NCBI GenBank assembly: GCA_020445745.1
Contig: JAGRGB010000186.1
Span: 17,382 to 81,381 of the forward strand
Source of the DNA: Rhodocyclaceae bacterium
GTDB lineage: Bacteria > Pseudomonadota > Gammaproteobacteria > Burkholderiales > Rhodocyclaceae
Length of the DNA: 64,000 bases
Reading direction: 5' to 3'
Shown: piece by piece, positions 24,931-25,059 of the stretch
How positions within the stretch are numbered: position 1 is the stretch's first letter
Layout: each line of letters starts with the position of its first letter
Program-made: the position numbers and the translations under genes
The notes under the pieces: generated by a model
What the model was told of the DNA's origin: nothing
What the model saw: only the letters and a program-made list of their open reading frames with translations
Databases searched by the model: none

Positions 24931-25059
24931 GCACCACCATCTGATCGATCAGATGGTGCTGAGCCGTCTCCCGCTTCACCTCCCTGAGCGGGTGCCTTAA
25001 TCTCCAATTAAGGCATTTCAACCCCTGGCAACCTCCCCTTTTGCCGGGGGTTTTCTTTG
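24931..25059 (+). ncRNA. candidate trans-acting small RNA with anti-Shine-Dalgarno loops
   Basis: Four consecutive hairpins fill the hemB–engB gap. H1 is a 24-bp perfect palindrome (24935–24958). H2 has a 6-bp stem (24970–24975 with 24987–24992) and loop TCACCTCCCTG. H3 has a 9-bp stem (24993–25001 with 25007–25015) and loop CTCCA. H4 is a strong terminator whose loop reads CCTCCCCTT. Three loops thus carry CUCC/CCUCC, complementary to Shine-Dalgarno sequences. The U-tract follows H4 only on the plus strand, where no protein gene ends. A possible -35 is TTGCAT at 24896; no good -10 is visible, so the 5' end is a guess. Similar loop logic is known for RsaE and for the Neisseria sibling RNAs RcoF/NmsR. 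Confidence 0.6.

Follow-up and report, generated by a model that had tools for sequence, protein, structure and literature searches.

What is the RNA encoded between hemB and engB in this Rhodocyclaceae bacterium, which sigma factor drives it, and is it tied to haem, as its place beside hemB and a cytochrome gene had suggested? A covariance search bears out the small RNA candidate: in the window, the 64,000-nucleotide stretch of DNA analysed here, positions 24967-25058 (+) match Rfam family RF02837, 'anti-hemB' (Burkholderia RNA 7), at 71.6 bits against a gathering cut-off of 49.5 (E 8.6e-15), over the full length of the model (positions 1-81 of 81), and this is the single RF02837 match in the bacterium's own genome. 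The window RNA is a real small RNA of an already known, listed family, an identity that the preliminary description had not recognised, nor had it recognised the sigmaE-type promoter found here. RF02837 exceeds its cut-off in 35 of 41 genomes (own genome included) and, across the order, in 190 of 300, figures that rise to 39 and 232 at E<=0.001, and one genome of the order search (G379) has six matches, two of which share a 270-base stretch of one contig. Among 14 control genomes, three have matches at E<=0.001 but below the cut-off, in E. coli, Caulobacter and Deinobacterium. The B. cenocepacia counterpart, ncS04, is reported to be expressed as a discrete RNA of 105 nt and to bind Hfq (PMC5688073). 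According to a review, hemB is predicted as a target of Bc7, an RNA copurified with Hfq, and RybB of Salmonella is its homologue (PMC6321483); we infer that Bc7 is the RF02837 RNA. No established function for RF02837 was found in the open-access literature searched. What is new here is a 5' hairpin, a conserved sigmaE-type promoter and the placing of RF02837 in an engB-side lineage with ErsA and sX13. Elsewhere in the window, positions 58981-59049 (+) match the int-alpA RNA (Rfam RF02996) at 63.4 bits, which suggests an integrated element near the window's end, and positions 1-132 (G000:C133:17358-17513) overlap a partial RpoE-model match, another ECF-like factor.

The comparisons draw on two sets of loci. 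Promoter and synteny counts for the order come from 118 fetched loci, the better-scoring among the matches in the 39 and 232 genomes (overlapping sets), of which four without the regex anchor were dropped to leave 114; by eye all four carry GGAACT and CCTCC. The order loci come from many families and 113 of the 114 sequences are distinct, but they are mutually related and trials on them are not independent. Forty-four of the sequences make up alignment A1, and from A1 alone, hence from this order only, we built the covariance model R1. Run on 229 genomes of the class at E<=0.01, R1 gave matches in 93, of which two belong to this order; the other 91 supply the class loci outside the order, the best match from every R1-positive genome with flanks of about 1.5 kb, some ended by contig ends. 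The E-values of R1, and of the model R2 introduced below, are rough, and some of the weakest R1 class matches may be false.

The plus strand from 24931 to 25065 folds at -58.2 kcal/mol (z -6.18, with none of 200 shuffles as stable), and the predicted transcript at 24950..25058 (+), of about 109 nt with its start placed to within 2 nt by promoter spacing, folds at -48.9 kcal/mol (z -5.89). A1 supports four helices in which 22 of 30 pairs have changed on both sides and 94.8% of cells are paired, a level reached by none of 500 shuffles, while slid versions pair at 32-50%; RNAalifold, run independently, gives nearly the same helices. The first of them, H0, is a 5' hairpin at 24951..24969 (+) with stem 24951-24957/24963-24969, lying outside the Rfam model, with compensatory changes at six of seven pairs and 93.4% of cells paired. 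H1 follows at 24970..24992 (+), a CCCGCU...AGCGGG hairpin that presents the loop TCACCTCCCTG at 24976-24986, within which the CACCUCC match to the anti-Shine-Dalgarno core of 16S rRNA is present as described. Five of its six stem pairs are without variation and the CCUCCC within the loop hardly changes; this conservation suggests that the H1 sequence itself is read. H2 (GCCTTAAT/ATTAAGGC; 24994..25014, +) has compensatory changes at seven of eight pairs around a CTCCA loop, and the intrinsic terminator (25021..25058, +) has them at eight of nine stem pairs, with a C-rich loop (CCTCCCCTTTT) and a T tract. A simple terminator scan of the window region found one terminator against 1.2 expected from shuffles, no excess, probably because the terminator loop is above the scan's size limit.

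All the stem-loops first drawn from H1 onward are present, then, and their stems are conserved when the hemB-engB gap is compared across relatives. Of the three loops proposed to be anti-Shine-Dalgarno, two have lasted. By fixed-window patterns, the first loop has CCTCC in 113 of 114 loci, a count partly selected because the anchor required CTCC there, and the terminator stretch has TCCCCTT in 85 (102 with a less strict pattern, which may pick up bases of the stem as well), whereas the loop of H2 is free in sequence and keeps CTCC in 6 of 114. The 24-bp palindrome that had been taken for the 5' hairpin exists, at 24935..24958, but it overlaps the predicted -10 box, which its left arm contains, and the start site, and its right arm forms the beginning of H0, the hairpin that actually covaries. 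It is perfect only in the window among the 114 loci, the next longest perfect arm being 5 bp; of five loci from the same genus, L009 keeps it with one mismatched pair (11/12) and the other four have lost it. Its 18-bp core occurs at one other place in the genome, with two mismatches. We reject the palindrome as a conserved operator or 5' hairpin, with one perfect copy in 114 loci, and judge it a coincidence.

What drives transcription? A -35 box of the sigmaE (RpoE/ECF02) type, GGAACTT, lies at 24917..24923 (+), followed after 16 nt by a -10 box, TCTGA, at 24940..24944 (+). GGAACT is conserved at this position: it occurs within a 35-nt stretch in 77 of the 114 order loci, against a mean of 1.49 and a maximum of 7 in 200 trials of random placement, and the -35/-10 pair with a 16-17 nt spacer occurs in 71, against a mean of 0.9 and a maximum of 4. 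Aligned loci read GGAACTT, then 16 or 17 nt, then TC[TA]NA, so that the arrangement typical of sigmaE-dependent small RNAs of the RybB/MicA kind, GGAACTT-N16-TCTRA/TCAAA, is kept in relatives. Of the 91 class loci outside the order, 67 have GAACT at the promoter position, against a random-placement mean of 5.1 and maximum of 12. Among the 22 order loci in which hemB was not found, GAACT is kept in 17 and GGAACT in 12, which ties the motif to the RNA rather than to hemB. The genome encodes a true RpoE (335.7 bits against a cut-off of 236); a search of about 1.5 kb around its own rpoE turned up no GGAAC-type promoter. In the 4.88 Mb genome the strict pattern GGAACTTN{14,17}TCTNA has one match, at the window locus, and its reversed control likewise one; in 150 family genomes the strict pattern is by eye no commoner than the reversed control, and of 29 strict-pattern loci inspected there, six are this small RNA. 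A sigmaE-like box, GGAACTT...GGTAAACTCTTA, recurs in five family genomes (L049 and places in G165, G131, G008 and G017), and at L049 it precedes a 78-aa Cys-containing ORF.

It could be objected that the same trans-acting anti-Shine-Dalgarno RNA is made by the housekeeping sigma factor, GAACTT/TCTTA being a variant sigma70 promoter or that of another ECF factor, and that it is not an envelope-stress RNA at all. Several loci read TTGAAC...CTATCTTA/TATCAT, which can be taken for either promoter kind; other ECF factors do exist, since the genome has ten RpoE-model matches at E<=0.001, one of them over the cut-off; and Burkholderia-type copies carry TATGAT/TATCAT. Three such loci found by the RNA model alone (L066, L067 and L083), and with them the B. 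cenocepacia locus L157, have TATATGATA/TATATCATA where most loci examined have the GGAACT box, and L066 differs from L157 at 3 of 110 positions; a further 34 Burkholderia/Trinickia loci were selected by a pattern requiring their promoter and are uninformative on its frequency. Burkholderia thus seems to have a sigma70-like promoter, an apparent promoter switch, and this may explain why ncS04 is reported without significant change across the conditions listed, SDS among the stresses tried (PMC5688073), a result that would itself suit a housekeeping promoter. Against the objection, a scan of 24400-25700 found no sigma70-like site, and GGAAC[TC] with a spacing of only 16-17 nt is the signature of ECF02/sigmaE promoters. 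The consensus -35 of sigmaE is GGAACTT (PMC2893595, PMC1804206), B. bronchiseptica SigE uses the same promoter kind in vitro (PMC3490749), and transcription of ErsA, whose locus corresponds to this one, depends strictly on sigma22. We regard the housekeeping reading as unlikely, if worth keeping in view, and favour a sigmaE-driven start at about 24950. The B. cenocepacia locus points to the same position: in L157, whose strain, NCTC13227, we take to be equivalent to J2315, counting back 105 nt from the T tract puts the start of an RNA that ends there 7 nt downstream of TATGAT, and the same geometry would start the window RNA near 24950.

Does the RNA act on its neighbours, as its Rfam name implies? 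In the window it lies between hemB (porphobilinogen synthase; 23871..24884, -; NF006762, 503 bits), which is divergent, and the gene of the convergent GTPase EngB/YihA/YsxC (25018..25674, -; TIGR03598, 224 bits), the position characteristic of RF02837, and beyond engB an ORF at 25759..26421 (+), with a provisional start codon, encodes the c-type cytochrome first called cytochrome c4, with all cytochrome families below their cut-offs. A cis-antisense RNA controlling hemB or engB would agree with the arrangement of divergent hemB, RNA and convergent engB in 85 of the 114 order loci, with a terminator that in the window is antisense to the last codons of engB, and with the naming of hemB as predicted target of Bc7 in the review (PMC6321483). 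Yet the RNA has no overlap with hemB in the window, hemB was not found in 22 of the 114 order loci, and in 15 of them engB lies upstream on the same strand, so that the antisense relation to the engB 3' end, correctly seen in the window, is not general; the loops, moreover, show a sequence conservation that pairing in cis would not require. We consider control in cis very improbable.

The proposed link to haem or respiration fares no better. hemB adjoins the RNA in 92 of the 114 order loci but, over flanks of about 1.5 kb, at no locus among the 91 outside the order; it is engB, polA and the sigmaE-like promoter that accompany the RNA. A cytochrome is near the RNA in 101 of the 114 order loci (86 on the plus strand, 15 on the minus) and in 50 of the 91 class loci, and it stays there as the other neighbour of engB. 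We therefore reject a haem link by position. engB, not hemB, is the lasting neighbour of the small RNA, hemB being a bystander that occupies the place of polA in this order, and the name 'anti-hemB' points to the wrong neighbour.

A strong terminator at the end of a convergent gene might also be read as part of a 5' leader or of a bidirectional or antisense termination structure, with no free small RNA made. Against it stand the element's own conserved promoter-like site, three conserved hairpins upstream of the terminator, one with a nearly invariant loop, and the discrete 105-nt RNA of B. cenocepacia; we give this reading almost no credence.

The reading we prefer is that of a small RNA acting in trans. 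RNA polymerase carrying RpoE (sigmaE) would start it at about 24950, as the promoter sequence and its conservation suggest, and it folds into three hairpins and a terminator, as the covariation shows. The C-rich loops UCACCUCCCUG and CCUCCCCUUUU would be left exposed and, judging from their conservation and from experimental analogues, would base-pair, with the help of Hfq, to purine-rich Shine-Dalgarno stretches in mRNAs and prevent their translation. The proposal, made in the preliminary description, of a C-rich-loop RNA acting on ribosome-binding sites is upheld by structure, loop conservation and analogues. Bordetella CT_433 (S17) and CT_521 act on Shine-Dalgarno-like motifs by RIL-seq (PMC12235514), and for Neisseria NmsR anti-Shine-Dalgarno mutants and reporters show action at ribosome-binding sites (PMC5362039). 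These RNAs, including the NmsR siblings, and the Burkholderia double-hairpin RNAs (RF02278) share unpaired C/U-rich, Shine-Dalgarno-complementary stretches with the window RNA. The Bordetella RNAs come from other loci, the window scores 15.4 bits against a cut-off of 50 with RF02278, and the likeness to NmsR/RcoF is one of mode of action only. CT_532 (MicA-like), CT_521 and CT_433 of B. pertussis were considered as counterparts and rejected, since the loci given for them are others (pyrD, rpoH, bp3151-bp3152). Because the relatives and analogues act at ribosome-binding sites, repression of the translation of several mRNAs under envelope stress is the most likely function.

Which mRNAs might these be? 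The long-complementarity pattern CTCAGGGAGGN{4,9}ATG has 36 matches in 29 of 121 family genomes, against eight for the reversed control, and no match in the bacterium's own genome. Thirty of these loci, on inspection, yielded only one related ORF pair (L201/L202), possibly shadow frames, and no conserved long-pairing target was found in the 121 genomes. Porins were checked at 30 loci from 31 genomes, of which 29 gave an ORF start under a crude signal-peptide rule, two of these starts looking wrongly chosen. Only ordinary GGAG pairing was seen at them, in a scoring that covered porin genes alone. The lack of a specific target fits short-seed pairing and is no proof of it. Taking promoter, fold, loops and neighbours together, we think it likely that the window encodes a trans-acting, sigmaE-driven RNA of about 109 nt that belongs to RF02837, occludes ribosome-binding sites and forms the betaproteobacterial branch of the ErsA/sX13 lineage, with hemB as a bystander. 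RF02837 is common in the order, and its conserved sigmaE-type promoter makes it a testable envelope-stress regulator.

Where might such an RNA have come from, if hemB is not its lasting neighbour? Of the 91 class loci outside the order, 66 have engB within 1.5 kb (63 of them convergent downstream, as in the window), 53 have polA upstream, and 42 have polA upstream and engB downstream in that order; 15 are without polA and engB, and 10 of those also without a cytochrome. The polA-engB region of P. aeruginosa contains ErsA (PMC8575079), sX13 is a neighbour of polA in Xanthomonas (PMC3771888), and E. coli has polA(+)-spf(+)-yihA/engB(-), the order and orientation of the 42 loci. In some gammaproteobacterial loci there are tandem copies of the RNA, four at L249 and two each at L279, L282, L293, L306, L354 and L355, reminiscent of sibling small RNAs.

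Covariance models point the same way, with differing force. The ErsA model (RF01719) gives eight matches at E<=0.001 in 185 class genomes, one of them over the cut-off, and all eight adjoin polA and/or engB. At six of the seven sub-threshold loci R1 matches the same place at E<=0.01, so that the ErsA model and the anti-hemB-derived model meet on the same loci, as an ErsA lineage would predict; the seventh scores 21.2 bits with R1, not above the R1 control of 21.6, and the CCTCCCTGAGCGGG hairpin is missing from, for example, L250 and L253 among the seven. For three of the 91 class loci (L249, L251 and L252), the stretch used is the one retrieved with the ErsA model, at the position that R1 also matches. 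The sX13 model (RF02232) has ten matches in 229 genomes, six of them beside polA or engB (two of these over the cut-off); of the remainder one is also R2-positive, at 50.8 bits, and three are neither. R2 was built from alignment A2, 80 matches in 75 of the 91 class loci, and since the 16 loci left out were mostly weak or without known neighbours, it is partly chosen by synteny. On the 64 kb window the small RNA locus is its only match, at 91.7 bits, and it gives 29.1 bits at the ErsA locus, 30.7 and 30.6 at the two sX13 loci over the cut-off, and 20.2 at Spot 42. In 122 kb of porin and sigma-factor control loci searched with default filters, the top matches reach 21.6 bits with R1 and 25.8 with R2, and both come from L234, which has a pair of hairpins and a terminator; with filters off, 24 of the 33 control loci gave R2 scores of 25.8, 20.3 and 11.6 bits. 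As control matches reach 25.8, scores below about 26 bits carry little weight. Searched the other way, the window falls below the cut-offs of ar14 (E 0.002), sX13 (0.0039), ar7 (0.039) and ErsA (0.2), with 25.2 bits against 50 for sX13 and 18.0 against 50 for ErsA, and for the latter reason we do not file the RNA as ErsA. Kinship with ErsA and sX13 thus appears well supported by position and by the meeting of the models, and modestly by direct score. For Spot 42 it is position only that suggests kinship; as a sequence relative it is not supported, its R2 score standing against control scores of 25.8 and 20.3.

The authors of the sX13 study remarked that sX13, Spot 42 and alpha-r7 share the polA locus and raised the question of small RNAs at this place in other bacteria (PMC3771888). 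In the open-access literature searched we found no paper joining anti-hemB to ErsA, sX13, Spot 42 or alpha-r7; the review that covers both ErsA and Bc7 treats them apart in the passages concerned (PMC6321483), and the Rfam tables checked hold no common clan for anti-hemB, ErsA and sX13. We put forward, at roughly even odds, that one envelope-stress anti-Shine-Dalgarno RNA lay beside engB in a beta-/gammaproteobacterial ancestor, that anti-hemB, ErsA and sX13 descend from it, and that Spot 42 is a rewired descendant or a replacement; hemB would have taken over from polA as neighbour, the promoter would at times have changed too, as from sigmaE to sigma70 in Burkholderia, and the CCUCCCUGAG hairpin would have been kept in many branches. 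If true, common ancestry answers the question of the sX13 authors (PMC3771888) for the betaproteobacteria.

How, then, does the window RNA compare with the known systems? RF02837 and ncS04 share its sequence, its H1-H2-terminator structure and its hemB-engB neighbourhood; the Rfam model is without the 5' hairpin H0, and Burkholderia copies have a TATGAT promoter where most loci examined in the order have the sigmaE type. ErsA resembles it in its GAACTT-type promoter, its envelope-stress sigma factor and its occlusion of ribosome-binding sites with Hfq: it is strictly sigma22-dependent, acts with Hfq on the algC ribosome-binding site and represses the porin OprD (PMC7565897, PMC6321483). The one locus over the ErsA cut-off, L248, has polA upstream, where the window has hemB in polA's place, and differs in being without the CCTCCCTGAG hairpin and in having no engB within the fetched stretch. 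sX13, also beside polA, is about 115 nt long and has three stems with C-rich loops, through which it represses mRNAs with G-rich motifs near their starts (PMC3771888); unlike the window RNA as we picture it, sX13 is reported to be Hfq-independent, and no engB was found beside the two loci over its cut-off, L347 and L348. Spot 42 (spf) shares the order and orientation of its neighbours with the 42 class loci, differs in an R2 score under that of the best control, and is CRP-repressed, as the title of a paper in the sX13 study's reference list states (PMC3771888). The polA-engB locus links anti-hemB, ErsA and sX13, and what has been learned of ErsA and sX13 can therefore guide work on RF02837.
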